In this document: in pieces, positions 20,867-60,775 of the stretch | Layout: each line of letters opens with the position of its first letter | How positions within the stretch are numbered: position 1 is the stretch's first letter | From: Siphonodentalium dalli | Lineage: Eukaryota; Mollusca; Scaphopoda; Gadilida; Siphonodentaliidae | DNA length: 64,000 bases | NCBI GenBank assembly: GCA_032622095.1 | Contig: CP136064.1 | Span: 132,067,129-132,131,128 of the forward strand | Reading direction: 5' to 3' | Position numbers and translations under genes: made by a program | Notes under the pieces: generated by a model | What the model saw: only the letters and a program-made list of their open reading frames with translations | The model's database searches: none | What the model was told of the DNA's origin: nothing

Positions 20867-23800
20867 CTAGGAATCTTGCATTAGGGCACTGAAAATACAG
20901 GAAATAACTTTGCACAAGTTTCGTAAAACCTTTGGCTTATTGTTATTCATCAATTGATTCATTTTCACCATTGTCGGTCTAGTATAGTAATATGGTGCGA
21001 TAAATTTGCGTCTCTGATACTCGAATTTATCGCAAATAAGTAACACATGTAGTTCATCGCCGATTTCGCCGGAGTAACAAAAGCGACACGAAGAAGGGTT
21101 TTCATCAGCCCAATCTCCCGTTTCAATCGGTAATCTGTGGTTTCTCGTTCTGAATTTGAGAAGTGTATGTGCTTCTTTTCTGCTTAGACTGTTAAAATAG
21201 CTTTCATACCCAAAAGCGGGCTTAATGTTTTTATACAATTTACATTTACTTGATGTGTTTAATATGGTCCACCATTCTTGAGTGTATTTGTCTTGAACCG
21301 CAGTCTGCATAACCGTATTGAAGGCCTTAATTGAACTTACATCATGTGTTTCCCACATATGGCTATGTCCGAGTGAATTCAGCAGGTTATTAACGTAGTT
21401 TATCCATATCGATTTGCTGCGGAGCTGTCTGTTCTGACTGAATCGCGTACACAATGACCAATAGAGTAGATAACTTATTTTCTGGCGTTTGCCACTGATG
21501 AGTTTCGCCCAAAATTTCAAGATTCGTAGTTCGATTTTGGTTTTTATCGGATATAGTCCTAGCTCTCCATACACGAATGCCGTTGGTGTACTAGTTTTCA
21601 TCTTCATGACATATTTCAAAAACCACAGCTCTGTTCTCTGGATAATATCATTGTTGTAAATACCCCAGATTTCTGACCCATATAATATAATTGGGACGAC
21701 AGTTTTTTCATAGATATCAATTATGCATTCAACGGATAAGTCAAATTGTCTGATCTTGCAAATTAACGCAAACATTGCTCTCTTTGCTTGTTCACATCGA
21801 GACTTTTTCTCATTTAAAAAGGAGCCGTTTTTATGGAAAGTTACTCCAAGATATTTGTATCCATCAGTTACTTCGATATGTTGATTATTGAACGCGAAGG
21901 ACTGTGGAAGTTTATCTTTTTTTCTGTGACGACCGAATATGACAACATTACTTTTAGAATTATTGATTTTTAATTTCCAGAGTTCACAATATTCTGCATA
22001 ATCATTTAGCATATGTTGTAGCCCCTGGGGTGTGAATGAGAATAGCACTGTGTCGTCGGCATAAAGAAGACAAAATAATTTCAGATAATTTTCATTCAAG
22101 TTTTGAAAATCGGTTATATGTATGCCATTTTCAGAATTAGCGCCAAGTTTCATCTCCAAATCATTTGTATACAGGGAGAATAACACGGGTGACAGATTTT
22201 CACCTTGTCTAACACCAACTTCACAATCAAATAGATCGGAATATTCATTATCTGAGATGACACACGATTTTATACTTTCGTACATATTTCTGATAACTAC
22301 AAGAATTCTACCTGATATTCCTACCTCTATCAGTTTTCGCCAGAGTGCAGCCCGCCAGACGTTGTCGAAGGCCTTAGATAGGTCTATAAATGCGCAATAT
22401 AACTTTTTCTTTCTAGCTTTCGCTAAGTCTATCACAGCGTTTAGAGTAAAGATGTGATCGACAGTGGAGTAGTCCTTTCTAAAGCCTGCCTGGTTTTCAA
22501 AGAGTATTGCATTTTGGTCCAGAAAAAGCTGGATCCGTTCGCTAATTATCGATGTGAATAACTTCGCAATACAACTTACAAGCGTAATTGGTCGATAATT
22601 TTCTGGGAGTTGCGAATCTTTACCCTTGTATAATGGTTGTATAACGCCAATGCCCCATTCGGTGGGAATGATGCCTGTTTTTAAAATTAGGTTGAAATAT
22701 AATTGTAGAAATGGCTTCAAAGGGGTTGCCATTTTGATATATTCATTCTTGATACCATCAATACCTGGGGCGCGCCCAAATTTAAGTTTTCGGAGTGCTT
22801 CGTCGATTTCATCAAGTTTAATATCGTAGTCTAGCGCAGACGTTTGAATATCTGCCACGTTACTCGTTGTGTGATCGGTGATATCTACATCTGAATCTGA
22901 ATGGTTAAGTGCAGCAAAATAGTCATGAAAATCCTTCAAATCGGGTACTCGACTGGGCCGGGTTTGTCTTTTGCCGCGTCCAATGTATCTCCAATATCCG
23001 CGGGGGTTTCGGGATCTCAATTCGGATATTTTCTTACCGGTGTCTACTTTGTATTTTAGTCTACTCCGCCTTATTGTCGATTTGTATTCACCTCGGGATT
23101 TCTCAAGGCATTGTTTATTTGTGTTATTTTGATTCAATCGGAAACGTTTATATGCTTTGCGATACTGACGTCTTGAGTTGGCACAGTCTCTAGAGAACCA
23201 CGGATTTTTTACTCGCATGTTTGTGGCTGCATGTTTTCGCTTTTTGCTCGTCCCCATACTCGCGGCCGCGCTACGTAAGAAAATAGTTTTCAGCTTATCA
23301 TTTACATCATCTATATCAATGCGGGACACGTCACTTCTCATATGTAATGAGAAAATGTCTTCATTCAAATCAGTCACTAATTTTGGATCAATGTTTTCTA
23401 TATACTCACGTTCGTATTCATTGTTCCACGGTTTGATAGTTTCATGGTTTGAGTTTTCCGACACTAATGATATTGGCTTACCAGTACTCGGTGCTACAGT
23501 TGGACTACTCACAGACACTTCAAATGAGATCTTACAGTAAATATGGCTATGTACATCACTAAGGAGGTTGTTAAAATCGCCCACACAGAACTCGCTAATC
23601 AATGGCATGAACAGATATGCCGCGACTGCGTAGTCCACTACACTTACATTTCGACAAGTTACTTTACCAATTCCATCGTCACTACCAACTCTACCATTTA
23701 CTATGAGGGATTCCACAGTCTTGCACATGTCGACCAATTTATACCCATAATTATTCGTTTTTGTGTCTTGTGATGACCGTTTGGAACATTCAAACTGTTC

Positions 23801-24310
23801 ACCGGGGAAAGGTTTATCAGGGGTAACAAAATCAACTAGGCGAGCTGTCCTAGCATTGAAGTCGCCCATCAATATAATATGTTCACTAATCATTCTAACT
23901 TCAACAATGGAGGCATGGATTTCATTGAAGCATGTGTTAGAACTGAACTTTGTACCTTCCGGTGGTATATAAACATTTCCAAAAATCAAAGATAAATTCG
24001 GTTCTGCTTTGAATCTAAACCAAGCAACAAATTCATTTTTAATATCAAGTGGCTCGGTAAAATCTACCAAATTATTTTTAACTAGAACACATAAACCTCC
24101 CGATCTGTATCTAGAAATTGTTTCTCTATTTTGTTGTATTAGTGTTTTGAAACCAGGTACCTCTATAACATCCGCTTCGTCGGTTTTGGTTTCTTGTATA
24201 CATAGCACATCAAATTGTTCAATGAAACTTATGAATTCTGGCTCGTTTTGCTTACTCATTATTCCTGCTACATTTAGAGAATATATTTTCAGTTCCATCT
24301 CATGCTTCAT
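20867..24310 (-). CDS. LINE ORF2: AP endonuclease - reverse transcriptase
   Basis: 1147 codons, uninterrupted. Residues ~5-240 are an exonuclease-endonuclease-phosphatase (APE) domain that nicks the target DNA: SLNVAGI at the start, QETKTDE with the catalytic Glu, then LMGDFNAR (D-x-N) and a C-terminal block ending SDVHSH. Residues ~490-790 are the reverse transcriptase: APGIDGIKNEYIK, NYRPITL, QAGFRKDYST, then FIDLSKAFDNVW, GVRQGENLSPVLF and the catalytic LLYADDTVLFS. The C terminus (~1040-1110) has a cysteine-rich block (CRFCYSGEIGDELHVLLIC). It performs target-primed reverse transcription of its own RNA. ATG at 24310 overlaps the ORF1 stop. All catalytic motifs are present, so activity is plausible. 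Confidence 0.93.
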   Translation of the reverse strand: MKHEMELKIYSLNVAGIMSKQNEPEFISFIEQFDVLCIQETKTDEADVIEVPGFKTLIQQNRETISRYRSGGLCVLVKNNLVDFTEPLDIKNEFVAWFRFKAEPNLSLIFGNVYIPPEGTKFSSNTCFNEIHASIVEVRMISEHIILMGDFNARTARLVDFVTPDKPFPGEQFECSKRSSQDTKTNNYGYKLVDMCKTVESLIVNGRVGSDDGIGKVTCRNVSVVDYAVAAYLFMPLISEFCVGDFNNLLSDVHSHIYCKISFEVSVSSPTVAPSTGKPISLVSENSNHETIKPWNNEYEREYIENIDPKLVTDLNEDIFSLHMRSDVSRIDIDDVNDKLKTIFLRSAAASMGTSKKRKHAATNMRVKNPWFSRDCANSRRQYRKAYKRFRLNQNNTNKQCLEKSRGEYKSTIRRSRLKYKVDTGKKISELRSRNPRGYWRYIGRGKRQTRPSRVPDLKDFHDYFAALNHSDSDVDITDHTTSNVADIQTSALDYDIKLDEIDEALRKLKFGRAPGIDGIKNEYIKMATPLKPFLQLYFNLILKTGIIPTEWGIGVIQPLYKGKDSQLPENYRPITLVSCIAKLFTSIISERIQLFLDQNAILFENQAGFRKDYSTVDHIFTLNAVIDLAKARKKKLYCAFIDLSKAFDNVWRAALWRKLIEVGISGRILVVIRNMYESIKSCVISDNEYSDLFDCEVGVRQGENLSPVLFSLYTNDLEMKLGANSENGIHITDFQNLNENYLKLFCLLYADDTVLFSFTPQGLQHMLNDYAEYCELWKLKINNSKSNVVIFGRHRKKDKLPQSFAFNNQHIEVTDGYKYLGVTFHKNGSFLNEKKSRCEQAKRAMFALICKIRQFDLSVECIIDIYEKTVVPIILYGSEIWGIYNNDIIQRTELWFLKYVMKMKTSTPTAFVYGELGLYPIKTKIELRILKFWAKLISGKRQKISYLLYWSLCTRFSQNRQLRSKSIWINYVNNLLNSLGHSHMWETHDVSSIKAFNTVMQTAVQDKYTQEWWTILNTSSKCKLYKNIKPAFGYESYFNSLSRKEAHTLLKFRTRNHRLPIETGDWADENPSSCRFCYSGEIGDELHVLLICDKFEYQRRKFIAPYYYTRPTMVKMNQLMNNNKPKVLRNLCKVISCIFSALMQDS

Positions 24311-25893
24311 GTCCCCTTGTCCCGTCCCTGTGCCAGAGGGACCACAGGGGTGGGACCGGGGGTTATATCCACGGCTTCATCTGCTGTAACACCCAATGCA
24401 TCCTGTCCGGATGTTGCCACTAAGCCCGGTTGTGGTACACCAACCACCGGAGGTCTGGCTGAGCTTTCACCTCCTCTGATTGGTGCACGTCCCTGGGGTG
24501 GCCTAAAATGGTCACTCACCGAGTTCATTGGCTTACCTGGGTACCGAAATTCATCCTGAGTATCAGGTTGCATTTCAATATCCGGTGTTTTCACTACAGG
24601 GCAGGATGCAGGGGCAGGCATTCTTGGGCGGACAGAAATTATGGGCGGTACTTGTTGTCGAAAACTGTTGTTTCCTGCAGTGTTCGCATAATTTGATTGT
24701 ACTCTAGGTTGGGAAAAATTCCCTGCTGCTGGGTCAATCGGGGACTCAATCAGCCTATAGTTCATATTACGAAAGTTGGTTTGTTGTATCATCGGCACAA
24801 GGGGGTAAGACCGATCGGGATTCCATCTGTACATCGGTGGGTCATCAGGGCACACTTGATAGTTATTCACAAACAGTCTGTCACCTGCAACGACGGCTTT
24901 TTTGCCACTGCTTCTGGCACTCTTTGCTACCGGGAATAGAATAGCTTTCCTATAATCGTCAATCTCTTTCGGATATTGTTCGGTGATATAGAATTGTTGG
25001 TCTCCCTTATCGCGGACTGCCCTTTTAACATCTTCACGCTGACGGAATTGTACGAATCGTGCGATGACGCGCCTTGGTTTGTTGGGAAAGGTACCTCTCA
25101 GGCGGTGAACATTCCCGAATTCCATTCTTTCATGAATATCGAGCTCGTCGCGTATGAAATCGCGCAGTATGTCCTCGGTGGTAGCATCCTGGGATTCCGT
25201 TTCAGTTATTCCGGAAAATATAAGGTTACATTTCATACCACGTGATTCAAGATCAATGACCCGTTCGTTTGTTTTTGTCTGCTGACCGGATAGTGATTGC
25301 AGCTCATGATTTATTCGATTGAAGTGGTGCACAAGCTGATCAATAGATTGGCCCATTTCGAATTGTTTTTGTGTTATGTTTCCCATATTACACGCACTTT
25401 GAGCCGCGATTGACTTCGTGTGTTGTATTTCTCTACCCATGTTTGTGACTATATTCTCCACACTTTCCAGCCTCTGGCCAAATTGACTAACATCTGTATG
25501 CACTTGGTCCAGTTTGTCTAATCTAGTGTTCATTTGTTGCAAAATTGAGAATATTTTATGCACGTCTGATTTGTCATCACTTGATTTGTTGTTGGGCCCT
25601 GCATTGACAGGGGTTTTGGGATTAGTTTGGTCATCGAAAATGATCCTGGAACGGATGGGTGCGCACAGTTCACTCGATCTGTCCTGATTTTTGACAACTT
25701 TGTCTATACTTCTGGGTTGAAACGTGATTGGCGTATTTTCGGGATCTAGAATATTATATGATTGGGTATAAACAGAAGCGATCTCACCCATGCTGCTGAA
25801 GTCTGGTGTTGACGCCATGTTTGGTTCCTTTGCTGGAGGAGGTGTGAGTTCTTGGCTTGCCTTCCTCTTTGTAATGTCTGTTACACCTTCCAT
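24307..25893 (-). CDS. LINE ORF1: RNA-binding chaperone-like protein
   Basis: 528 codons from ATG 25893 (MEGVTDITKRKAS); the open frame runs further upstream but without an ATG, so this start is preferred. Residues ~125-220 form a predicted coiled coil (MNTRLDKLDQVHTDVSQ to NHELQSLSG). They are followed by an RRM-like fold typical of L1/CR1-type ORF1 proteins: KCNLIFSGI, then DILRDFIRDEL and RRVIARFVQFRQREDVK, ending near GDRLFVNNYQV. The C-terminal third is Pro/Gln-rich and likely disordered. Known relatives trimerise and coat LINE RNA. The TGA stop at 24309-24307 overlaps the ORF2 ATG, implying translational coupling. Confidence 0.85.
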   Translation of the reverse strand: MEGVTDITKRKASQELTPPPAKEPNMASTPDFSSMGEIASVYTQSYNILDPENTPITFQPRSIDKVVKNQDRSSELCAPIRSRIIFDDQTNPKTPVNAGPNNKSSDDKSDVHKIFSILQQMNTRLDKLDQVHTDVSQFGQRLESVENIVTNMGREIQHTKSIAAQSACNMGNITQKQFEMGQSIDQLVHHFNRINHELQSLSGQQTKTNERVIDLESRGMKCNLIFSGITETESQDATTEDILRDFIRDELDIHERMEFGNVHRLRGTFPNKPRRVIARFVQFRQREDVKRAVRDKGDQQFYITEQYPKEIDDYRKAILFPVAKSARSSGKKAVVAGDRLFVNNYQVCPDDPPMYRWNPDRSYPLVPMIQQTNFRNMNYRLIESPIDPAAGNFSQPRVQSNYANTAGNNSFRQQVPPIISVRPRMPAPASCPVVKTPDIEMQPDTQDEFRYPGKPMNSVSDHFRPPQGRAPIRGGESSARPPVVGVPQPGLVATSGQDALGVTADEAVDITPGPTPVVPLAQGRDKGT

Positions 25894-25930
25894 TTTGGCG
25901 AAATTATCGAAAAACACACACACAAATGTT

Positions 25931-29238: not shown

Positions 29239-29245
29239 CCTTATT
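29239..29245. repeat. Left target-site duplication of the MULE
   Basis: CCTTATT, repeated at 41529-41535 where it continues as CCTTATTTTAG. Removing the element and one copy restores the LINE 2 sequence, whose reverse-transcriptase frame then reads through LIGLK, a TAA in place of Gln, and GDCL. MULEs usually make 8-10 bp duplications; two T residues may have been lost from the left copy. Confidence 0.8.
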
Positions 29246-31050
29246 AGAGTGGCTAAAATGCAAGCTTGGCGCCAAGCTTGGCAGTTTTTAAGGCAGGTGA
29301 CTAAAAGACAAGCTTGGCGTTTTCAAATTTTTTAAAAGCCTTTTAAACGCAGTTTTCGGGTGAATTATGCGGGAATAGCACCAGTTAATTACTTATATGG
29401 CCCATTTTCGTAAATTAATCGACAATAGTGGCAGTAATGTCCCCGATTGGTTGGTTAATAGGGGGCGTGGTCACAAAATCAAAACATCGTCTTTTTACGC
29501 AGATTTCTTGTCGGTTTTTGGTCGATTTCTCTTTTTAAACATCAGTTGGACTCAGTTTTTTATTCAAAACATGTTGAATGGTTATCATTTATCACTCTCA
29601 TAGTCGAGCTTGGCGGTTTTGAACATTATATGCGAAGAATTTTTGACTTTTAGATGACCGACCACCGAACCGCCAAGCACGAATAAAAAATCTAAATATT
29701 AAGCTGAATTTTTGCCGATTTCTCGTTTCTAAAACACGTTGCATCTAGTTTTTATGTAAAAACGTGTAAAATGATTATCATTCTTCACATATATAATCGG
29801 GCTTGGCGGTTTTGAACATTATATACAAAGAATTTTTTACTTTTAGATGACCGACCACCGAACCGCCAAGCTCGAATAAAAAATCTAAATATTAAGCTGA
29901 ATTTTCGCCGATTTCTCGTTTCTAAAACACGTTTCAGCTAGTTTTTATGTAAAAACGTGTAAAATGATTATCATTCTTCACAAATATAATCGGGCTTGGC
30001 GGTTTTGAACATTATATACAAAGAATTTTTGACTTTTAGATGACCGACCACCGAACCGCCAAGCTCGAATAAAAAATCAAAATATTAAGCTGAATTTTCG
30101 CCGATTTATCGTTTCTAAAACACGTTCCATCTAGTTTTTATGTAAAAACGTGTAAAATGATTATCATTCTTCACAAATATAATCGGGCTTGGCGGTTTTT
30201 AACATTATATACAAAGAATTTTTGACTTTTAGATGACCGACCACCGAACCGCCTAGCTCGAATAAAAAATCAAAATATTAAGCTGAATTTTCGCCGATTT
30301 CTCGTTTCTAAAACACGTTTCAGCTAGTTCTTATGTAAAAACGTGTAAAATGATTATCATTCTTCACAAATATACTCGAGCTTGGCGGTTTTGAACATTA
30401 TATACGAAGAATTTTTGACTTTTAGATGACCGACCACCGAACCGCCAAGCTCGAATAAAAAATCTAAATATTAAGCTGAATTTTCGCCGATTTCTCGTTT
30501 CTAAAACATGTCCCAGCTATTTTTCATGTAAAAACATGTAAAATGATTATCGTTCTTCACATATATACTCGAGCTTGGCGGTTTTTAACATTGAGTACTT
30601 AGAATTTTCGACTTTTATATGACCGCCCACCGAACCGCCAAGCCAAGGCAAAATGATACCCAGACCAAACCGAGGCAAAATGATACCCACCAAATATTGT
30701 CAACGTGTACCCATTAATGATCGTCCATGCAACTAATCAAACTTGTTCAATTATGTTATGTTCTTGTTTCGATGTAGCATTGTGATTTAAATGGCACGTG
30801 TCTGGAACGGTCACAATGATAATATACATGAATTCCAGAGGGCAAACTGTAATATAATTTAATTCTCCATCCACATTAAATTATTATTATTATTATTTGT
30901 TTTTTTGGGGGGGGGGGGGGGGATTTGACCCAGGAGGATTTGAAAGGACCTGAGACGTCATTCTTTCTTTCTTTTTAGTGTAAACATATTTTTATTTCCA
31001 ACATAACATAATATACAGATGATACAAAATTAATATGCAAAATAGAAGAG
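29246..31050 (+). repeat. Left TIR of the MULE with six ~193 bp repeat junctions
   Basis: The outer end contains CTTGGCGCCAAGCTTGGC. It is followed by a unique ~350 bp block and then tandem ~193 bp units; AACCGCCAAGC occurs at about 29671, 29863, 30056, 30249, 30442 and 30635. Each unit pairs GCTTGGCGGTT with its inverse AACCGCCAAGC about 70 bp apart, a likely transposase-binding arrangement. The inner end runs through a G run (30907-30922) and a (TTTC)n tract to AATAGAAGAG at 31041-31050, matching the right TIR in inverse. Confidence 0.85.
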
Positions 31051-31218
31051 AATCAGAATCAGAATTCAATTAATCTCAAATCGTCGTACATGTTGACATA
31101 ACAGAGACAAATATATGTCACTCACATCAGTGCTATAATAAATAATATTTAGTAAAATGTCCGAAATATGATCTCGTAAAGTATAGCAAAATAAACCGAC
31201 TTGACACATATTTTTGGT

Positions 31219-33344
31219 TTATATTTTCTCCACACTTCCAATCTGCTCGGGGAGAATGTGGGTAGGGCAGAGGACGGTGTGCCTTTGACCGTTTCTGTAA
31301 AGTTGTATACTCTTAAACATCTTCGTCTTTAAGAAAATAGCAGCGGTGTACTTCTTCTTCACATTTAATCCTGGAAAAAATATATTTACATGTAAATGGT
31401 TACTATATATGACACACTGAATTTGCATATTATACAAAAGTGATTGGGGCAGTCGCATTGAGATATATAACATGATTTGAGTTAGGGTGGAACAAAAAGG
31501 AAGCAGATAGTGTTGCACTGTGTTCGGGACAGCAAAATGCATAGAAAGAAGAAACTGAAGAAGGAGAAAGGAAGTAGAAGAGATATGCACGAGACGATGA
31601 CAATGGTGGGGAATTTTCATTATGTGTTCACAATAAGATTTGGTTGTTGCGTGAGTAAAACTGATGCTCGTATGCGGTTATCGACATGCGTCGGACGCCA
31701 TGTGTGTGGGGGGGGGGGGGGTGTCACTCATACTGTAAACAGTTTGCATCCATATAAAATAAGTAAATAAACATTCAGTTACTGTGGCGATACATACTGT
31801 TTGCACCACGATACGATTATCGCCATGTCTCTATACGACAATGAACTATACAAATTCACATTAAGCACATGGACATGCTTTCATTTCTTTATTAAATAAC
31901 TATTGATAGTTTGGATTACCTCTTATTACACGGTCAAGTGCCGATCGTTCACACGTGATTAAGTGCACATACGTTCTACCCATCTTCTTCACGCCAACAT
32001 CGAGAATGGACAGAACATTCTCCCATTTTGTCATATGGACTAGCTGGTCCGTTCTTTTTGGTTCAAAGATGGTGTATTCCATCTCTACTGGGTTTACCTG
32101 AAACGAGAGAATAACAGTTTTAGAAGTAAGACATGGCAAGTACATTGAAGTTCAAAGTGATATATTCACAAAATAATGCACGACTGTACATGATATCGCT
32201 CTCGTTTACTAATATAATTCAATTTCATTCGAATATTCTGATACAGCCCGACTGTAAGCGGCACATTATTAACTTTAGATCTGTACATGCCCGAATATTT
32301 GATATAGCCAGGTAAGTTGTTCCAACATCTATGTTTGTCTGATAACAATGAATACTGGTAACTATCGTGTGTGGTCTGAAATATTAATGGTCTATTGGAT
32401 TGAATGCATGCATTATGCAATGTATACCTTAACGGTGTGTCCCTGTTCTGCTCTGAACCATATCTGTCCGTGTTCTCTCATAATTGTCACTCTTTCACCA
32501 AGATATCCTTGATAAACTACGTCGACGAGGTTCTGACAGACAATTAGTTTCCTGCAATTTCTGGATATAACTGATGCAAGGTGGTTACCTTCCAGGCGCC
32601 CATCAGCTAAAAAAAATGGAAGATGTTGTTAGTCGTTTTCCTGGTTATTTCGATGCCAGTTTATTTCTTCGTAGTATGCCAAATCCAACACAATAGAGTG
32701 TCGGGCAATGATTGAATCAATAAAGGTTTATTCCCCATTCATTTTCGTGTAGTTATACACGAGAAATGTGGATACAACTTTCGCATTTGCAACATCAAAT
32801 AAACAATGTATCATCGTCTTTCTCTCGGATATTTTAGTTGGTCGCAGATAAAAACTGAGAGTCTGCCAAAGTCGCGCCATGCACGATGAGTGATTACAAT
32901 ACATCAAAGTTTAAAGCATTGAAACATATTAAGAATGTCAGATTGAACTGTATGACCGTATACTAAGCGAATAGCCGTGTTTTGTTAGCAATCGCTGTAA
33001 CAATTTTGTTTACTTAACGGTTTTAACACAAGATATTATTTTATTGGAAACATATCAACAACGAATCTACTTCTCCGTGTTCTTCGAAATGGTGCTATCT
33101 TACATACTTCTGTATATTTGCACATTCAATTAATACTTCTCGTAATACAAGCTTGACGTGGTGTTGAAAAGTATATGTATTTATATGGCGGGTCGGCTTG
33201 GAATTTGTTTCCATTACAATGTTTTTTTTTATTTATTTACAGAGAAAATAACTTACTTGGTATCAAGTCTTTGTTGTGTCGTAAATTCCACAGCAATTGG
33301 TCGGACATAATTTGATAGAAGCGTTCGCCATATAATCTATCCAT
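31219..33344 (-). CDS. TRPT1: Tpt1/KptA-like RNA 2'-phosphotransferase, four exons
   Basis: Spliced CDS 33344-33257, 32606-32428, 32097-31920 and 31370-31219, 198 codons. Splice sites are all GT-AG (GTAAGT, GTATAC, GTAATC; acceptors TTTTTTTAG, CGTTTCAG, TTTTTTCCAG) and phases agree. Family marks: LLWNLRHNK near residue 20 with the catalytic Arg22-His23, FRAEQGHTV with Arg81, and KKMGRTYVHL with Arg130; these are the four Arg/His positions conserved in Tpt1/KptA. The usual HGT motif reads HMT (110-112). Tpt1 removes the 2'-phosphate left at a tRNA splice junction, using NAD+; some members can also ADP-ribosylate nucleic-acid terminal phosphates. Length fits the family (about 200-250). The gene lies inside a transposon and is divergent from the SGNH gene, so cargo is the best reading. 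Expression is not shown. Confidence 0.82.
32230..32400 (-). pseudogene. Possible LINE ORF2 tail inside intron 2
   Basis: In the second intron of the Tpt1-like gene, the minus strand reads HDSYQYSLLSDKHRCWNNLP and continues without a stop for some tens of codons. It resembles the YKYSFFPRTxRxWNxLP C terminus of CR1/L2-type LINEs. The match is short and could be coincidence. Confidence 0.35.
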
Positions 33345-33802
33345 AGTGACGGTGATTATGTTTTGAAACGTTATTAGGCACTTGGGAAATGACCCGGAAT
33401 GATTTTAGTGTGATGCGATATGGTCTATATAGTAAGTACCTTGGCGTCCGTTTGGCTTCCCATTACGTGATTGACGTCTTTCCTGAATACCGAATTGTTC
33501 TTCTCGCAAAGCAACACCGACAATGAAAACAATTAAAACAAGCGATGTGAGAATAGATCTCACTGGGCTTCATATCATGTTTGCATAGAAGAATCGCGGT
33601 ATGCCATGAAAGGTCACGGTAACCAAACTGATATCAACTTGAATTACCGACAAACGGAGGCGTCATGTTTATTTTAGGGTATCCAATCAGAGCCTGTTGA
33701 TCATACATGGGTTTCCGACAGGAGACGACTTTAAATGAAGGCTCGTATTGCACGAAGCAGATCATTCTGTTCACTTAAACTATTGTTTAACTAAGTTTCA
33801 CC
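33345..33802. promoter_or_regulatory. Shared divergent promoter region
   Basis: 458 bp between the start codons of the Tpt1-like gene (minus) and the SGNH gene (plus). On the minus strand, CTATATAG at about 33425-33432 lies ~80 bp upstream of the Tpt1-like ATG. On the plus strand, TTTAAATG near 33730 lies ~70 bp upstream of the SGNH ATG. Divergent placement with a common spacer suggests co-expression; no experimental support is available. Confidence 0.45.
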
Positions 33803-34375
33803 ATGGATAATTCATTCAAGTATGCTTTGCTTGGTAGCAGCTATATAAAACGCCTAGCAATGTATAACGACCACGACATGAATGTGATAGGTGCTCGTGG
33901 AATGATTTTCTTCAAAGGCGGTATGCGGATTGACACTCCAAGAGAAATAAAACATTATCGACACTACCTAGATTTGCTGAAGGTATGGGGGCCCAAGGTT
34001 GTGTTCCTGCAGCTAGGAGGAAACGACATTTCTCCAGATATGCCTGGCGACGAAATAGCCAAAGTTCTTCAAAGCATCGTCAACGAGATTAGAGAAACTG
34101 GGGCAATTGTTTATGTCGGAGAGATCCTGTGGCGCGGAAACACCGATAAGGTTCCGGGCCTGACACCCGAAATGTTCCAGAAAAAAAGAAAACGGATAAA
34201 CGCCCTGATGAACAAATACATGGGACGCGATTTCATTCTTTTCAAAAAGATCAAGCCTGCGGATTACAGCGACGATATGATCCATCTGAAAGAACCAGCT
34301 GACGACTCCAACGTTGGGATCAGAAAATATTTCTTCGCTGTGCAAAGATTGTTTTTCCGACACAACACACGCTGA
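33803..34375 (+). CDS. SGNH/GDSL-type hydrolase domain protein
   Basis: 190 codons, single exon, ATG in a strong context (TTTCACCATGG). Conserved SGNH blocks are visible. Block I is ALLGSSYIKRL, with the nucleophile Ser13 (GSS instead of GDS). Block II Gly is in IGARGM (30-33). Block III is FLQLGGNDI with Asn74. Block V is DDMIHL, giving Asp158 and His161. SGNH enzymes hydrolyse esters (lipids, acetylated sugars). Small SGNH domains also occur in transposon proteins, for example ORF1 of some CR1-type LINEs, where their substrate is unknown. No signal peptide, so probably cytosolic or nuclear. Lysine/arginine-rich middle (FQKKRKRINALMNKYM, 125-140). It starts 459 bp from the divergent Tpt1-like gene. 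Confidence 0.8.
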   Translation: MDNSFKYALLGSSYIKRLAMYNDHDMNVIGARGMIFFKGGMRIDTPREIKHYRHYLDLLKVWGPKVVFLQLGGNDISPDMPGDEIAKVLQSIVNEIRETGAIVYVGEILWRGNTDKVPGLTPEMFQKKRKRINALMNKYMGRDFILFKKIKPADYSDDMIHLKEPADDSNVGIRKYFFAVQRLFFRHNTR

Positions 34376-34447
34376 CCTTCGATGACCTATATATATATAC
34401 ATACACATTTTTTGTCTTTATTACATTGTTCATGTTTTTACCGGTAT

Positions 34448-34876
34448 AAGGCGCTCATAAATTACTATTTCTTTGGCTTCGGGGGTAAAACAAAATATTT
34501 GACTCGAGTCGAGGAACATACCCGTCAAAGCTCAGAGTGATCAGATATTGATGATTGAGGTTAGTTCAATTGTTTCTAGCCCAGAAACTCGAGTTCAAAC
34601 GGACGTTTTTGTAGAAATATATATATATATATTCGGCATCGTTTCTGTAAAGATCGATAGCACTAAAATTAAGTGGTTATCATTAGCACTCGATTTTAGT
34701 TATCCACATTTAGCTGCAAGAACGTCCGTTTGGACTCGAGTCTCTGGGCTCGTAACAATTGAAATCCCAAAAATCGATATCTGATCACTCTTGAGCTTTG
34801 ACGGGTAGGTTCCTCGACTCGAATCAAATATTTTTTACCCTCGAAGCCAAAGAAATAGTAATTTAGGAGCGCCTGA
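34448..34876. mobile_element. ~430 bp MITE with ~165 bp inverted arms
   Basis: Left end AGGCGCTCATAAATTAC mirrors the right end, whose inverse reads AGGCGCTCCTAAATTAC. Arms stay similar through CTCGAGTCGAGGAAC and CCCGTCAAAGCTCA to AAACGGACGTT. Central AT-rich spacer. No ORF and no clear target duplication. It sits between the SGNH gene and a transposase fragment, which it or a later event appears to have truncated. Confidence 0.75.
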
Positions 34877-34879
34877 TCG

Positions 34880-35195
34880 GATTGAGTACCTTTAATAAAA
34901 GTTATGCATATTATGGAGTTCCTTTTCGAAACAATAAAAGAAAAGATTCCCAACCTTTGTAAGTCGTCAATTCCGATCACGCTAGAAAGTGCCATCACAA
35001 ATGCGGTCAAGACGCATATGCCAAATTTAACAATTCTATTTTGTTGGAATCACATCAAGAGGGATTTCAGATTTAATATCAAACAACATTTAGGGGCTCA
35101 ACCGAAAGAGATCACCGTGTATTTGAATGACCTTGCAGTCATACTTAAATGTAACAATGTTTATTTACCATTCAACGTTATTAGCATCTGCAGAG
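34880..35195 (+). pseudogene. Fragment of a second MULE transposase
   Basis: The plus-strand frame contains LFETIKEKIPNL, then ITNAVKTHMPNLTILFCWNH and IKRDFRFNIKQHL. This parallels the minus-strand transposase in the same element (LFEAVREKIPNL, CWNHLKRDLHRYL), including the CxxH motif. The second catalytic Asp equivalent is replaced (ITLESAI against VFDREDA). It is truncated on the left by the MITE and on the right by the Helitron fragment. It is either an inverted remnant of a related MULE or part of an internal rearrangement. Confidence 0.75.
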
Positions 35196-36258
35196 AGATA
35201 TACTCGGAAACGGGTGGAGCTATCGACTTGAAATTTGCTATGTGAATGTATCTTGCCCCGGATACGAATTTTATCGGGTCGCCGAGCCCGTGCGACGCAA
35301 GCTTCGCGCATGCGCAGACCAGATCTCGGAAACGGGTGGAGCTATCGACTTGAAATTTGGTTACCAGATCTCGGAAACGGGTGGAGCTATCGACTTGAAA
35401 TTTGGTTTTTGAATAGCCCGGACAACGGGCTCATCTGCTAGTCTATTATATATATTTGGAAGATCTGTGTGTGTCTGTCTGTGTGATCGCGATGAACTCG
35501 AAAACGACCGAGCCGATTTCGATGAAACTTGGTATGTGGGGGTATTTTTGGCCGGGGACTGGCATAGGCATATTAATTTGTCCGTGCGACGTGACCTTGG
35601 CCTTGACATCGGGTCATTTCAAGGTCAAACGTCCGAATATCACGGGATTTCGATGAAACTTGGTATGTGCGGGTACTTTCGTCCGGGGAGTGGCATATGC
35701 CTATTAATTTGCCCGCGCGACGTGACCTTGACCTTGAAATAGGGTCATTTCAAGGTCAAACGCCCGAATATCACGGGATTTCGATGAAACTTGGTATGTG
35801 GGGGTACTTTCGGCCGGGGAGTGGCATAGTCCTATTAATTTGCCCGTGCGACATGACATTGACCTTGAAATCGGGTCATTTCAAGGTCAAACGCCCGAAT
35901 ATCACGGGATTTCGATGAAAATTAGTGTCTATGGATACTTTCGTATGGGGAGTCTCATAAGCCCGTGTGACGTGACCTTGAAATCTGGTCAATTGAAGGT
36001 CAAATCGCGAATTTTGATGGGATTTCGACAAAATTTGATACGTGGGTTACTTTTGTCCACTGAGTGTTTTGGACGGGTCAAAGCGTGACCCCGACCTGAC
36101 ATTGACCTTAAAAATGATCAATTCGAGGTCAAATCCCACCAAATATCCCGGGATTTCGATGAAAATTGGTGTCTAGGGATACTTTCGTATGGGGAGTATC
36201 ATAAGCCTATTCATTTGCCCGTGCGACGTGACCTTGACATCGGGTCAATTCAAGGTCA
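35196..36258 (+). mobile_element. Two partial Helitron units with 131 bp repeats
   Basis: The first unit contains three copies of a CTCGGAAACGGGTGGAGC block and ends with hairpin GCCCGGACAACGGGC, then TCATCTGCTAG at 35441, a typical Helitron 3' end. A second unit starts directly with TCTATTATATATATTTGG at 35442. It consists of about six ~131 bp repeats (GATTTCGATGAAACTTGG at intervals of 131), each carrying TGACCTTGACCTTG-type direct repeats. It stops at about 36258 inside the transposase 3' region. The family is the same as the array at 49431-56340. Confidence 0.7.
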
Positions 36259-39200
36259 TTCCTAATGACATGTCTACGTTAGGCGCAAAAAGTGTGTCCT
36301 GAAATCCAAGAAACCATGGAAACTGGTCGGCGAGAATAGTCTGAGAGTCCCTAATTATACTGTCACAGAGCCACTGACCCGTGCTGATAGTCATTACTTT
36401 ACTGGGTGTCAATTTATGAACAGTATGTTGCGTCCTTACCGGAGATGATTGTTGTGATGACATTTTCGGCGGCGGCGACGCCGGCGAAAACAGCCTTCTA
36501 CGCTTTGCGGTGGATATAGTGGGCAGAATAATCGGTTGATCCGGTGATAAGACTGGAGAAACTGTGGGTGAAGGTGAAAGTTGGATATCGGTGAATACTG
36601 CCGGATTTGTTTTTGGTGATTCAGAACGCTCTGGTGTAAAAGACACGTTTGTCGGAGAACTAGAGAGTATCTGTGTGAAATCAGGCAATTGTGATGTATT
36701 TCCCTGAGATGCAGGGAGCGGAGGAGTTGTAGTCAATGGTGTAGACATTTTTGAATTGGCGGCACGAATTGTGGTTATAGGATGAGTTCGGGTAACGTTG
36801 AAAGTTATCTTCTGGTTGCCATGTCTTGTCTTTTTTAGACAAGATTTTGGGGGAGTTGGTGTGGTTATCGCGACAACTTCCGGTGATGTTCTGACAGGTG
36901 AGCTCACATTTGATGCGGTCACAGAAATTGGTCGAGGTGACTGAGACTGCTCTGGTGTAGTCGGAGATGAGCTTACAATTGATGAGGCCAAAGAATCTGA
37001 TGCGGGTGTACTCACAGATCAAAGAATCTGGTGCGGGTGTGGACAGACGATCATAATCGTTTTTTCTTGGCTTCTTGTTGCCAGATTTTTTATCCTCACG
37101 CGAGCGACCGCGTTTCCGGAGAACCGTCAGGTTAACAGGCCTGGTTTCTGGGTTATCAACTCCCATGCCGACGAGTAATCTGGCGGCTAAAATGTGGTAA
37201 CATGTGGCATTTGATGCACAACCACATGTCTCTTTGGGGAAGAGTTTTATGCAGTAGTTGTCGCCTCTGCTGCCAACTACACAAAATAGATGCTGTTCGG
37301 GGACAAACGATATTCTGTTTGACCTAATAACTTCATTAGCGAGAGCAATCTATATATATATATTTGCTCGTCGTCACCATCAGAATCATCCATATTGAGA
37401 CGACCATTCCTTGTTTCCTCGACAATGTCACGCCAATGTGTTACTCCTGGAGGCATTATACACTCTCCATCTTGGAGTCTGGCTGACTCGTAAACCTCTC
37501 TTAGTACAAAGTTGCCTACTCCAAGTCGTCCTCTTTTGTATTCGTAAAAATAAAATTTACAAAGAAAATACAAAGAAAGTACAATTGCGTCAATCGGAGC
37601 CTCTTTCCAACCTTGCAACTGTTTCAAGACAACATTGAATGACTCAGACTGATTGTTTGTGATGCCAGAGAGAGAGTCGTACACTTTATGTGGACGGAGC
37701 AACCAGGCACCAGCGCCTCGTTTGATGTCGCTTTTCATATTTCTATCAAAATAAGATTTAACTGACTGTGTCCAATTAGAAGTGAGGTCTTCGTACCTCT
37801 TCTCAAAATCATCCTCAGAATTTGCCTTCAACAAAGATATCAAGTCCTGCTTATAAATGGCAATTTCGTCTACATTAGCCTTGAGTTCAGTTTGTAAATA
37901 TCGATGGAGATCCCTTTTGAGATGGTTCCAGCAGAAAAAAATGGGCATACTTGGAAAGATTGTGCTCACAGCATTCGAGAAGGCGTCCTCTCGATCAAAA
38001 ACTATGGGGATTCGACTTTGAAACTTTGCAAGGTTTGGGATCTTTTCCCTCACCGCCTCGAAAAGACGAGTATGTGGCTTTTGATATTTCCGCTCGTGGA
38101 TGAGAAACGCCAGTGGAAAAACAGGAGAACCTTCAAACAAAATATTTCGAATGACAAGAGATGAAACGTAGAAGTCACCAACGTTGAATGTTGTGTCATA
38201 ACCGAGAACGAATCGACGAGAATCCTGGTCAATTTCGAGAAGATCATTTACCTCATTGGACCATTCTGGGTAATGAAGAATGACATACAGATCGTTGTCA
38301 AGGTAGCAAACTTCAGGTAAATGCTTCAACTGATGTGCCATTTGCAAAAGGTCCCTAATGGGATCTTTAGACCTTGTGCCCGCAACTACATGCGCCTTTG
38401 AATTCCGTACCTGTTTCGTATTTCTTGGATTGAGGACACCGTTATGATCTGGCTGAATATTATGATCTGACACGAGGCGTTGGTATATGGTATGGGGGTT
38501 GGATTCAGAAGATGTCACAGCTTCTCTGATAGAATGCAATGCAGAAGGTGCAGTTCGGTTGAATTTGGAACGACTATTTTTGGAATTGCCATGAGGGAAG
38601 CCAGAAGATAATGATTCGCTGCCCATATAATGGATCAGCACTTGATTTGAATTTTCATATAGGGTATACGCAGTGCGCACAAACGAGCCTGATCCTGTTC
38701 GATCACCAGCTCCCTGTTTTATATAGAACCGAGTTCTTGTGATAAGAGGGTCCTTCTTTGGAAAGTTGTTAGGCCCTTTGTTAACCCAACGATGCTGATC
38801 AGCTTTCCAATCGTCACGCTTAACTGGGTCATCATTTTTGTAGATATATAACGTGCCACCGATTGGCTTAACGGGTGGGGTGTTACCAACCTTGACCAGT
38901 CGATTTTGGTTTGATGAAAGTATGTCTATCGCATCGTCATTTGAAAGGGGACCGTCCCAGCTATCAAGTTCAGAATTTGGACTGGCTGCAGTTTCAGCAT
39001 CAGGATTTGTGTCTATCCCCGAATCCTGTAAAAGACAAAAGGTCAACGTTAAATACACGTTATTGCAATCATATTAGTTAAAAGATAAAATATACGATTT
39101 GATACTAGATCGTACGAATTTCAACGAAGTCTTAACGTTCGAATTGTGTTAGCCTATATTTATAAATTATAATGACCGTCTCATATAAAGAGCGTTCACT

Positions 39201-39568
39201 TTACCGTGACTTCATGTATTTTCTCGTTTTTTTTTTTGTAAAGTAAACTGAACAATCATTTGATATCGAATAGGACACCGCACATGAAACTACTAAATCG
39301 TAGTGCGATACAACAATTCAATTAGTGACAAATAGAATACATTCAAAGGTTATGATTTTATTTGTTGTCGTGGAATGATGTCGACATTAACTATAGTGTT
39401 TATATTAGGCTTTTCTAATATCACAATTATTTGCATCATCTAAATGTTTTTTCTTCACAATATACTGTAGAAAAAATATATTATTTGACTTCCCATGAAA
39501 AAACGGACCAATAACCGGAGTACAGTTGAATGCTATATACATATGCAATATTATATATTACTCACCAT
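36245..39568 (-). pseudogene. MULE transposase with SWIM zinc finger, frame-broken
   Basis: ATG at 39568 is directly followed by a donor (ATG|GTGAGT); the 540 bp intron ends TTTTACAG and exon 2 starts at 39025, giving MDSGIDTNPD. Spliced numbering: catalytic Asp278 in VLGYDTTFNVG, second Asp near 345 in IVFDREDAF, CWNH at 366-369, catalytic Glu462 in NNQSESFN. This is the DDE plus C-x2-H signature of Mutator transposases, which cut and paste the element. After a (TA)n run at 37350-37363 the frame shifts; the next frame holds a SWIM finger, CGCASNATCYHILAARL, and a basic stretch. An imperfect 31 bp tandem duplication near 37020 shifts it again into a Ser/Thr/Pro-rich tail ending GQWLCDSIIRDSQ...LADQFPWF. 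The stop lies in Helitron sequence, so the native C terminus is lost. Confidence 0.85.
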
Positions 39569-39612
39569 TGCCACTGTCTTTCTGGAACTGATGTTGTTCG
39601 CTCACCAGCGGG

Positions 39613-39620
39613 AATTTATA
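39613..39620 (-). promoter_or_regulatory. TATA box of the transposase gene
   Basis: TATAAATT on the minus strand, ~50 bp upstream of the ATG at 39568, which would place transcription start near 39588 and give a very short 5' UTR. Confidence 0.5.
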
Positions 39621-40310
39621 GCAAGAAGGCGTGTCTAAATCAACTCAAACGAAACCCATACCGTCGCACGTGCGTGTCACCGTTAACACTTCGCATGATC
39701 GGCGGCATGTACACAAAAGTGACGAGTGTTCTGTGGGGAAGCAAAAAAACAACCCTATCAAAACAGCGGCACATAGACGTGTCACTGAATAAACAGTTCC
39801 ACCACTTCACTTACCAATGCACTGTATGGTGTGTTTATGAGCGATAACAGTTTGTCCGATTTAGTAAGCGTCATGAATTGTTTTTAAAGCAATTGCTAGT
39901 CAATTGAGCTGTGTCAAAAAAAACTAAAACAAATCATGAGTTGGGGTTCAGATTCCCACGTTGAACCAACGCGTTTAGTTTGATAATTCTGACAGAGGGT
40001 ATGGATCTATTCTGTAACGGAGTTTTCGTGTCGATTATAATTCACTTCATCCTGGTGAGTAAACTACTCGAATTGCAACTAACCGGTTCTTGGCTAGTCA
40101 GTGATATATATAAAATAAATGAAACCTAAATTAATGGGGACGGATGAAAGAAAACTCAAGAAAGCTAAGAAAAAGAAACATTATCTCAAGCCTTTCCCAT
40201 CTGATCGATACCCCTCCCTCACTTATCGGGGAAGTGGCATGTCGCCAAAGAGGAAAAGACTTCATATAAGCCATCGGGCTTGTTGTCTGGTCCTCATTTC
40301 CATACATTAT
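39621..40310. other. MULE interior beside the right TIR, no gene
   Basis: No supported ORF. The 70-codon frame at 40119-40331 is lysine-rich and runs into the TIR. Probably 5' flanking sequence of the transposase gene. Confidence 0.5.
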
Positions 40311-41528
40311 CTCTTCTATTTTGCATATTAATTTTGTATCACCTGTACACGTGCATATTATGTTATGTTGGAAATAAAAATATGTTTACACTAAAAAGAA
40401 AGAAAGAATGACGTCTCAGGTCCTTTCAAATCCTCCTGGGTCAAATCCCCCCCCCCCCAAAAACAAATAATAATAATAATAATTTAATGTGGATGGAGAA
40501 TTAAATTATATTACAGTTTTCCCTCTGGAATTCATGTATATTATCATTGTGACCGTTCCAGACACGTGCCATTTAAATCACAATGCTACATCGAAACAAG
40601 AACATAACATAATTGAACAAGTTTGATTAGTTGCATGGACGATCATTAATGGGTACACGTTGACAATATTTGGTGGGTATCATTTTGCCTCGGTTTGGTC
40701 TGGGTATCATTTTGCCTTGGCTTGGCGGTTCGGTGGGCGGTCATATAAAAGTCGAAAATTCTAAGTACTCAATGTTAAAAACCGCCAAGCTCGAGTATAT
40801 ATGTGAAGAACGATAATCATTTTACATGTTTTTACATGAAAAATAGCTGGGACATGTTTTAGAAACGAGAAATCGGCGAAAATTCAGCTTAATATTTAGA
40901 TTTTTTATTCGTGCTTGGCGGTTCGGTGGTCGGTCATCTAAAAGTCAAAAATTCTTCGTATATAATGTTCAAAAACGCCAAGCTCGAGTATATTTGTGAA
41001 GAATGATAATCATTTTACATAAAAACTAGATGCAACGTGTTTTAGAAACGAGAAATCGGCGAAAATTCAGCTTAATATTTAGATTTTTTATTCGTGCTTG
41101 GCGGTTCGGTGGTCGGTCATCTAAAAGTCAAAAATTCTTCGCATATAATGTTCAAAACCGCCAAGCTCGACTACGAGAGTGATAAATGATAACCATTCAA
41201 CATGTTTTGAATAAAAAACTGAGTCCAACTGATGTTTAAAAAGAGAAATCGACCAAAAACCGACAAGAAATCTGCGTAAAAAGACGATGTTTTGATTTTG
41301 TGACCACGCCCCCTATTAACCAACCAATCGGGGACATTACTGCCACTATTGTCGATTAATTTACGAAAATGTGCCATATAAGTAATTAACTGGTGCTATT
41401 CCCGCATAATTCACCCGAAAACTGCGTTTAAAAGGCTTTTAAAAAATTTGAAAACGCCAAGCTTGTCTTTTAGTCACCTGCCTTAAAAACTGCCAAGCTT
41501 GGCGCCAAGCTTGCATTTTAGCCACTCT
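40311..41528 (-). repeat. Right TIR of the MULE
   Basis: Inverse of 29246-31050 but about 590 bp shorter. Three CTTGGCGGTTCGGTGG junctions (about 40720, 40914, 41098) against six on the left show loss or gain of whole repeat units. The C run, (GAAA)n tract and outer CTTGGCGCCAAGCTTGC end all match. The frame encoding MAHFRKLIDN occurs identically in both TIRs and follows from the repeat. Confidence 0.85.
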
Positions 41529-41535
41529 CCTTATT

Positions 41536-59074: not shown

Positions 59075-60775
59075 TTAATCGTCCGAATTGTCATCACTTT
59101 CGTCAGAAGTGTCATTTGTTTCGTCCATGAATTTTTCTAGCATCGGTTTGTACTTTAATATTGACATTTTCAATGCATCACATTCTCCATAACCATTATT
59201 CAAATATTTGTCGACTTTATCCATGACTCTGTTGTGCAGAGTCCCATTGCGCAGCTGCAGATACGTCAATATTGTCATAGCATAACCAGTCATAAATTGC
59301 TTCATATCTTTACTTTTAAGGTCCTTGTCAGCTTGTACTCTTGCTTCTGTTTCTTTCGAGCCATTTTCCTTATACGTGCCCACTATATCACTCCATTCCT
59401 CACGTGTTTTATCTCTACTCTCATCACACAAACTTTTGAAGTATTCATCTTCATTCAATTTAATTTTCTTATTCTGACTATCATCCGTGTCCTCAGTTAA
59501 TTTTCGTTTTAACTTATTTTCTTGACACCAGTTTTTTACGTGTCTCTGAACATCATAATGATCTTCGAACAAAAGCCCGCAGTCATTACAAGGGTACGAC
59601 ATGTCTTCTCGAATGTCTATGTTTTGACGGTTCTTCTTATTAATTTCATCGAGCTCACCAGGTGGCCTTATGTCGTTAGTATAGTCATTATGTTGACCCT
59701 GGGGCACAATATAATTATATGCTATGCCCTTCTGTTGACCAGGGAGTTCTCTGTCATCGTATTTCATCGCATTCTGTTGACCCTGGGTCTCAGTGTCTTT
59801 TGTATGTTTTTTCATCCCATTCTGTTCATCTGTGTGTTCTCTGTCTTTTTGGAGATTATATTTCATGCCATTCCATTCACCCATATGTTGGTTCGTGTCC
59901 TCTTTTAGTACATTCTGTCGCAGACGTAATGTGTCCGGTGTTGCGGCTTTTAAATCCACCAGTAGGTAACCGTACGGTTCACTCGTCGCTTCCGAAAACT
60001 CTCGAACCATACGCTGAGGACATTCAGGATACATCTGTCTTGATAATGTTGAAATTAATCCCTTGTCGATTGGGTTATTGAACAATACCAAATATTGACA
60101 ATTTCGTCGTTGCGTTGGATCTTTGTTGTAGTAGAAATTCTGGTTCAAACTTATCAAAGATAAGTTCAAATGGTGACTTCCTTCGGAATGCAAATCATTA
60201 ACTCTCTGGTCTTTTGATGAAGTTTGCATCAAGTCATCGAGTATAACTAGATTTTTATACCGGGGGTTGATAAGAGAATCCAAGTTTGCTGGTATTCCTC
60301 GTATAAAGTTGACCTGAGGGGTGACGGTATACTTTATTTCGTTATATAGGGGCTGCCAATATTTATAAAACCATATTATTCTGTCAGGTGCGGGTGATAT
60401 TTTTGAGGCAGACTTTTGTAGCAAGGTTTTCACGAAGTATGTCTTACCACTAGATGTCGGTCCACTTACACATGCCGTGAATGGATGCTTGAAAATAAAA
60501 TCTTCTTGGACATTGGCCATTGGATCATCAAAGCAGGATGTTAAGTCGCTTTGTTGATGTTTCCCCTGCTGGTGTTGTAGTATCTGGTGTTGCTGTAATG
60601 GCTGTTGTTGTGGCTGATGATGCTGCTGCCTGTTGCTGCTACTGGTTGTTGCTGATGCTTGGTGCTGCTGCTGTGGGTGTCGGTTAACAAACTCAGTGTG
60701 CTTAGATTGTACATGTCTTATCAAATCATGGTTCCGCACATACTCACTAGAGCAAATTGAACACTGGTGCTTCAT
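59075..60775 (-). CDS. Zinc-finger fused to A32-like (FtsK/HerA) packaging ATPase
   Basis: 566 codons, intact, single exon. Residues 5-26 are a C2H2 finger (C5, C8, H21, H26). Residues 34-77 are Gln/His-rich. Residues ~95-290 are a P-loop ATPase: Walker A GPTSSGKT (105-112), Walker B NLVILDDL (175-182), then SEGSHHLNLSLISL with a polar sensor-like block, and RQMYP. This matches the A32/FtsK-HerA ATPases that pump DNA into poxvirus, Polinton and related capsids. Residues ~298-380 are degenerate 14-20-residue repeats (NGMK, NAMK, GQQ). A second, C2HC finger is at 396-417 (C396, C399, H412, C417). The C terminus is Lys-rich, then acidic. Zinc fingers at both ends suggest DNA recognition, perhaps of the TIRs. 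No viral partner gene is present. ATG 60775 is the first Met after a TATA box. Confidence 0.85.
   Translation of the reverse strand: MKHQCSICSSEYVRNHDLIRHVQSKHTEFVNRHPQQQHQASATTSSSNRQQHHQPQQQPLQQHQILQHQQGKHQQSDLTSCFDDPMANVQEDFIFKHPFTACVSGPTSSGKTYFVKTLLQKSASKISPAPDRIIWFYKYWQPLYNEIKYTVTPQVNFIRGIPANLDSLINPRYKNLVILDDLMQTSSKDQRVNDLHSEGSHHLNLSLISLNQNFYYNKDPTQRRNCQYLVLFNNPIDKGLISTLSRQMYPECPQRMVREFSEATSEPYGYLLVDLKAATPDTLRLRQNVLKEDTNQHMGEWNGMKYNLQKDREHTDEQNGMKKHTKDTETQGQQNAMKYDDRELPGQQKGIAYNYIVPQGQHNDYTNDIRPPGELDEINKKNRQNIDIREDMSYPCNDCGLLFEDHYDVQRHVKNWCQENKLKRKLTEDTDDSQNKKIKLNEDEYFKSLCDESRDKTREEWSDIVGTYKENGSKETEARVQADKDLKSKDMKQFMTGYAMTILTYLQLRNGTLHNRVMDKVDKYLNNGYGECDALKMSILKYKPMLEKFMDETNDTSDESDDNSDD

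Follow-up and report, generated by a model that had tools for sequence, protein, structure and literature searches.

What do a Tpt1-like gene and an SGNH hydrolase gene do inside a DNA transposon of a scaphopod mollusk? The question is raised by the 64,000-nucleotide stretch of the Siphonodentalium dalli genome analyzed here (C4:132067129-132131128, hereafter the window; the genome comprises 2.23 Gb in nine contigs, cited with the prefix C). A Mutator-like element (MULE) spans window positions 29246-41528, between copies of the 16-bp terminal inverted repeat (TIR) end AGAGTGGCTAAAATGC at 29246-29261 (forward strand) and 41513-41528 (reverse strand) with zero mismatches, and it carries a transposase along with the two genes. 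The explanation that we favor as a whole, and consider reasonably likely, is a damaged copy of an animal MULE family with a selected Tpt1-SGNH module and an inferred chemistry at nucleic acid ends. That the pair is a helper module of a MULE lineage is very probable; the step at nucleic acid ends is tentative and somewhat doubtful.

The Tpt1-like gene is on the reverse strand and is intact, its four exons joining across GT/AG introns to encode 198 residues. Exon 1 (33257-33344) contains LRHN, with the first two residues of the Arg-His-Arg-Arg tetrad; exon 2 (32428-32606) contributes the third tetrad residue, Arg, in FRAEQGH; exon 3 (31920-32097) has HMT and, in MGRTYVH, the fourth, Arg; exon 4 (31219-31370) includes the stop. 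The protein matches PF01885 (E 2.6e-12, 47.6 bits, cutoff 26), and the tetrad is complete by comparison with PMC6333775. Genome searches scored the best 150 of 205 Tpt1 candidates, the best 150 of 200 SGNH candidates and, for the transposase, the best 75 of 545 plus 74 of 497. Among the scored Tpt1 candidates, 144 match at E <= 0.001, and they group into 72 dispersed clusters with near-identical copies on several contigs. We read 15 of 20 returned loci, which correspond to 11 copies. Four exons are present in nine of these, and eight of the nine retain the complete 198-codon frame. The copy at C1:101.5 Mb shows a gap of 10 bases together with an altered exon 4 acceptor, and the one at C9:52.3 Mb has the full frame but has lost one splice acceptor.

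Head-to-head with this gene is the intronless SGNH/GDSL hydrolase gene (33803-34375, forward strand), whose product scores 34.0 bits against PF13472 (cutoff 32.9). GSS, GGND or GAND, and His blocks recur over the SGNH groups, the L058 row being without the first block. A preliminary description of this DNA had proposed both a Tpt1/KptA-like gene with four catalytic Arg/His positions and an SGNH gene with catalytic blocks; both identifications hold, with each Pfam score above cutoff, the tetrad in place and Ser, Gly, Asn and His blocks present. A fusion of SGNH to the transposase was considered for P0067 and rejected, since a profile comparison of its first 211 residues with the SGNH alignment produced no match (probability 0.4%). 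By eye, the start of P0017 has a short stretch resembling the end of SGNH.

The two genes recur together across the genome. Clustering first gave 72 Tpt1, 118 SGNH and 62 transposase clusters, and a hand-made union with the second transposase search brought the last to 72. An SGNH match lies within 8 kb of 28 of the 72 Tpt1 clusters, versus 0.085 expected were SGNH clusters spread evenly. All 28 pairs are head-to-head (27 by script, the last by its nearest SGNH match), with SGNH on the 5' side in every case. For the six pair groups that we read, identity to the window proteins is 32-55% for Tpt1 and 37-59% for SGNH. Exon 1 with LRHN and its donor site is found in the window group and in groups C7:151.8, C9:111.1/C2:147.0 and C6:183.1/C1:112.4 (positions in Mb), and could not be placed in groups L055 and L058; Tpt1 intron positions are identical in the four groups with all exons placed.

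Linkage to the transposase is also recurrent. A transposase lies within 20 kb of 23 of the 72 Tpt1 clusters, and 12 have both partners, SGNH within 8 kb and a transposase. These 12 belong to four lineages, the window included, so that 11 further clusters combine Tpt1, SGNH and transposase; other copies do not uniformly lack the two genes. At C6:183.1, C1:138.87 and C2:147.02 the transposase shares a strand with SGNH, unlike in the window; gene order has therefore changed while the pair has not. Counted from the transposase side, 24 of 72 clusters have a partner within 20 kb (23 Tpt1, 13 SGNH, 12 both), the SGNH counts being lower bounds because this recount used 57 of 126 SGNH matches, with weaker rows dropped and Tpt1 counts unchanged, and the hand-made union of transposase places. 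On C1, the only contig with a complete listing of exact TIR ends, an exact TIR end lies no more than 15 kb from each of the five window-family Tpt1 clusters, as read by eye.

Divergence between lineages points to selection on these genes. When the window family is compared with the C7:151.8 family, the ratio of nonsynonymous to synonymous differences per site (pN/pS) is 0.28 for SGNH, 0.46 for Tpt1 and, for the transposase (represented by the C7:31.34 copy), 0.44. Over all 15 SGNH pairs, pN/pS is 0.28-0.57. These values are rough because silent differences are at or near saturation: synonymous divergence (dS) is undefined for SGNH and the transposase, where silent sites are saturated, and is 1.58 for Tpt1. 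Since frames are still open despite such saturation, sequence comparison indicates that the genes are under purifying selection. Lineages were compared because changes within the window family are too few for selection to be measured there.

The exact TIR end occurs 447 times in the genome (228 and 219 by strand; 0 and 0 for the reversed-sequence control). From the first places listed we chose 17 other copies as exact-end pairs on C1 and C2, and the choice of two close exact ends favors deletion derivatives. Target-site duplications (TSDs) at these copies are 9 bp and exact in six, 9 bp with one mismatch in three, and unmatched in eight, which are probably nested or rearranged. One internal junction, common to 5 of the 17, bypasses the Tpt1/SGNH part relative to the window. 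Copy L018, 5.4 kb long and flanked by its own TSD, retains Tpt1 exon 4, and DNA with part of the Tpt1-like gene has therefore moved.

Overall, as judged from the sequences, the pair is an old, recurrent, non-universal module of an animal MULE lineage. Its recurrence in distantly related copies makes the two genes probable working helpers and not passengers; conservation of the pair in diverged groups supports the earlier suggestion that they serve an animal MULE lineage as helpers. Several observations weigh against this reading. A whole Tpt1 or SGNH gene was found in none of the 17 TIR-bounded copies read on C1 and C2, which limits it. Neither gene lies within 20 kb of 48 of the 72 transposase clusters, and these include long open transposase frames at C3:73.78, C5:34.85, C5:129.03, C5:134.74 and C5:222.50 Mb; the transposase at C3:73783486 (1167-codon frame) is 99% identical to that of the window, and the one at C5:222496041 is 100% identical to the C7:151.8 transposase over 409 residues. 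Conversely, an SGNH match within 8 kb is missing at 44 of 72 Tpt1 clusters (24 of them single matches), and C4:158.28 and C7:20.18 have four Tpt1 exon matches and no SGNH match. Such absences are weak evidence either way because only the best candidates were scored. The window transposase itself is broken, its frame being lost at a TA repeat (~37340-37365) and its protease part ending abruptly at 36245. In the homologues, some C-terminal domains fall below cutoff: PHD (16.6 bits, cutoff 24) and protease-type (17.4, cutoff 27) at C7:31.34 Mb, and, narrowly, Peptidase_C48 at C7:151.8 Mb (20.3 versus 20.7). The third tetrad residue is Lys in group L057/L059 and Cys in copy L056, and SGNH group L055 has an Asn three residues before the His. 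A protein-database search with the Tpt1-like protein found no homologue at E <= 0.001, and the protein scores 36 bits against the NCBIfam equivalog NF002013 (cutoff 231), so far below equivalog level that its substrate may differ. Within the window family, 5 of 597 Tpt1 coding sites vary versus 29 of ~1,520 intron sites (L032 was excluded for SGNH, as an insertion separates the gene, and L046 ends before SGNH).

For the partnerless transposases, either the pair is dispensable for some members, or it is too diverged for detection, or it lies more than 20 kb away. The C1:262.95 Mb transposase, with Tpt1 33 kb away, is an example of the last. Giant elements were considered for two transposases, C2:146953036 and C3:138181413, each separated by ~68 kb from an SGNH/Tpt1 pair. 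The idea was dropped for C2, where a transposase match falls within 1 kb of the SGNH gene; the C3 locus is a tentative candidate.

MULEs are known to capture genes, and these two could be host genes picked up by chance, in the manner of Pack-MULEs, and carried as passengers. The empty TIR-bounded copies and the 48 partnerless transposase clusters would fit such an origin. Chance capture does not readily produce a head-to-head pair in six groups at 32-59% amino acid identity to the window proteins, matching Tpt1 intron positions in the four fully placed groups, or frames open when silent sites are at or near saturation, and we regard it as very unlikely. A different possibility is that the Tpt1-like gene is simply the TRPT1 of the host, near TIRs that have nothing to do with it. 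The PF01885 match and conserved tetrad would be expected of TRPT1, but the gene is multicopy, with 72 clusters and near-identical copies dispersed on several contigs, and the copies adjoin transposase and TIR ends, with an exact TIR end near all five window-family clusters on C1; the chance that it is TRPT1 is vanishingly small. The pair is thus neither host TRPT1 nor a chance capture.

An alternative that accepts selection holds that the pair acts against the host, the Tpt1-like protein ADP-ribosylating small RNAs, PIWI-interacting RNA precursors or a host factor and the SGNH protein balancing this activity. Tpt1 enzymes are able to ADP-ribosylate 5'-phosphate RNA ends, according to PMC8883491 and PMC7050489. 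Conservation of the Tpt1-SGNH pair also speaks for this alternative, but every target is purely conjectural. SGNH enzymes, moreover, are not known to remove phosphate-linked ADP-ribose. We consider an anti-host pair unlikely.

Returning to the pair as a helper module, some longer members of the family combine the head-to-head pair with a CG-1/MULE/SWIM-like transposase that continues at its C terminus into a part resembling a protease and a PHD finger. With NAD+ (nicotinamide adenine dinucleotide), the Tpt1-like protein may act on phosphates at nucleic acid ends or junctions that arise in the element's cycle, either by stripping the 2'-phosphate that RNA ligation leaves or by adding an ADP-ribose cap to a 5'-phosphate. 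Co-expressed with it, the SGNH protein would be a deacylase, and the macrodomain on a related transposase (P0012) would fit the ADP-ribose theme. PMC8883491 and PMC7050489 describe two-step 2'-phosphate removal by Tpt1 enzymes, ADP-ribosylation by them of single-stranded DNA as well as 5'-phosphate RNA, and its reversal by macrodomain enzymes and others. Quite improbable, in our estimation, is a transposon that brings along a kit for healing RNA or capping its ends, and so spares the host gene and thereby itself. Its very long inverted repeats could fold within any host transcript entered; the Tpt1-like enzyme would complete a 2'-phosphate-type ligation or cap ends, and the SGNH protein and, in one relative, the macrodomain would handle the ADP-ribose product. 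Animals are reported to excise DNA transposons from mRNAs and reseal them, termed SOS splicing (PMC13247085).

Mutator-like elements (MULE, MuDR) include the animal Phantom and Rehavkus types. The present family resembles them in its MULE catalytic domain with an IS256-type fold, long TIRs that contain tandem units, target duplications of 9 bp at other copies and, tentatively, SWIM, which is matched in 11 of 55 family members; it differs in adding an N-terminal CG-1 domain, a C-terminal protease-like/PHD-like part and the Tpt1/SGNH pair. Our literature search found no description of this element or of its added domains or pair, although the search was partial and does not establish absence from print. 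Like Tpt1/KptA/TRPT1, the Tpt1-like protein exceeds the PF01885 cutoff and has the tetrad; it is far below equivalog level, has HMT or HLT where the canonical domain used for comparison has HGT, and is encoded by a four-exon gene within a transposon, next to an SGNH gene. SGNH/esterase domains occur in other transposons, such as the ORF1 esterases of CR1-type long interspersed nuclear elements (LINEs), which share the GDSL/SGNH domain by Pfam and the Ser, Gly, Asn and His blocks, but here the domain forms a separate DNA-transposon gene head-to-head with the Tpt1-like gene. Animal tRNA exon ligation leaves no 2'-phosphate (PMC7050489), and no phenotype is reported for Tpt1 loss in mouse or E. 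coli (PMC6333775). A transposon lineage keeping a Tpt1-like gene under selection would be a natural setting in which to seek a Tpt1 substrate in animals, and would extend the known helper functions in eukaryotic DNA transposons to NAD+/ADP-ribose chemistry. The CG-1 DNA-binding domain in the transposase may bear on the origin of CAMTA-type transcription factors.

The main transposase exon (37277-39025, reverse strand, to the point of frame loss) contains CG-1 (~38624-38944; PF03859, 25.8 bits, cutoff 23.5) and the MULE catalytic domain (~37916-38209; PF10551, 30.8 bits, cutoff 27.6), assigned with Pfam and an AlphaFold2 model. The best structural match of the model (mean predicted local distance difference test score 84.2) is ISCth4, of the IS256-type fold. 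On the same strand follow a by-eye SWIM-like motif, CGCASNATCYH, in a shifted frame (37167-37235), and a Ser/Pro-rich stretch with the truncated beginning of the protease part (36245-37015). The DDE/SWIM transposase of the preliminary description therefore stands as to its MULE domain; the gene is broken, the SWIM motif is off-frame, and CG-1 had been overlooked. Among 55 family members (the window's and 54 from the database, E <= 0.01), the MULE domain is present in 51, the window's included, SWIM (PF04434) in 11, CG-1 in eight, PHD in two, Peptidase_C48 in two and a macrodomain in one; L052 and L049 gave no Pfam match to SWIM at E <= 0.01. The macrodomain (E 2.5e-34) is in P0012 (849 aa), where it replaces the protease and PHD part at the C terminus. 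The C7:31.34 Mb copy has a 1165-codon frame with CG-1 at 23.9 bits (cutoff 23.5) and the MULE domain above cutoff; its C7:151.8 Mb homologue also has the MULE domain above cutoff, with the CG-1 part in a different frame. Alignment rows hardly cover the CG-1 part, and a Foldseek match of this part to a NAC domain (3swm, target TM score 0.47, E 0.048) proves nothing and was set aside. Named relatives are from bivalves (Crassostrea, Pinctada, Mytilus), plus one labeled uncultured Candidatus Thioglobus; a search of viral contigs for the transposase found none. From C7:151805345 to ~151841135 lies a MULE of at least ~36 kb, with arms of 205-bp tandem units of at least 4.3 kb and its right end beyond the sequence read.

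The outer TIRs of the window element had been called perfect, and the 16-bp ends are indeed identical; they are the tips of much longer inverted arms, in which blocks 516 and 573 nt long match at 99%. The left arm (29246-31051, forward) includes a 193-bp tandem array (29557-30643, 5.6 copies), and the right arm (40310-41528, reverse), with period 183 and 2.4 copies, is shorter because it has fewer tandem units. The TSD CCTTATT flanks the element at 29239-29245 and 41529-41535, confirming the 7-bp duplication described before, a length atypical for the family since other exact-end copies, where their flanks match, show 9 bp. When the element and one TSD are deleted in silico, the interrupted LINE aligns in a single frame over the junction with the LINE at 20867-24310. 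The frame had been said to resume across the insertion; it does so apart from one in-frame stop, its sole break, located at the junction. Also within the element are a palindromic, repeat-comparison-defined sequence resembling a miniature inverted-repeat transposable element (34446-34877), present within the C7:31.34 Mb copy too; a transposase-related fragment on the strand opposite the main transposase (34904-35245, forward; PF10551 at only E 0.031); and a 131-bp tandem repeat (35515-35920).

This genome has Tpt1 domains in two or more kinds of element: the MULE-borne genes and, at L063 (C1:272068500-272073500), a fusion frame. A genome-wide PF01885 search, which mostly misses the short exons of MULE-borne genes, yielded 83 matches, of which 22 lie in open frames at least 850 codons long and one, L063, was read. 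Its frame of at least 1447 codons includes a canonical, intronless Tpt1 domain (163 bits) and a TatD DNase domain (110 bits), directly 3' of an open reading frame (ORF) with a terminal PHD finger that by eye resembles a retroelement integrase end. The L063 frame looks like an extra ORF of a long terminal repeat retroelement, the integrase part being judged by eye. Local Tpt1-like clusters with no SGNH nearby are found at C3:81.82-81.86 Mb and C6:168.57-168.85 Mb, and the latter is a candidate location for host TRPT1.

Elsewhere in the window, the LINE at 20867-25923 (reverse strand) contains a pair of long open frames, of 538 and 1147 aa. A 566-aa ORF at 59075-60775 (reverse strand) has ends that look like zinc fingers and, as its Walker-A ATPase stretch, GPTSSGKT; by eye it resembles the packaging ATPases of Polinton-type elements.
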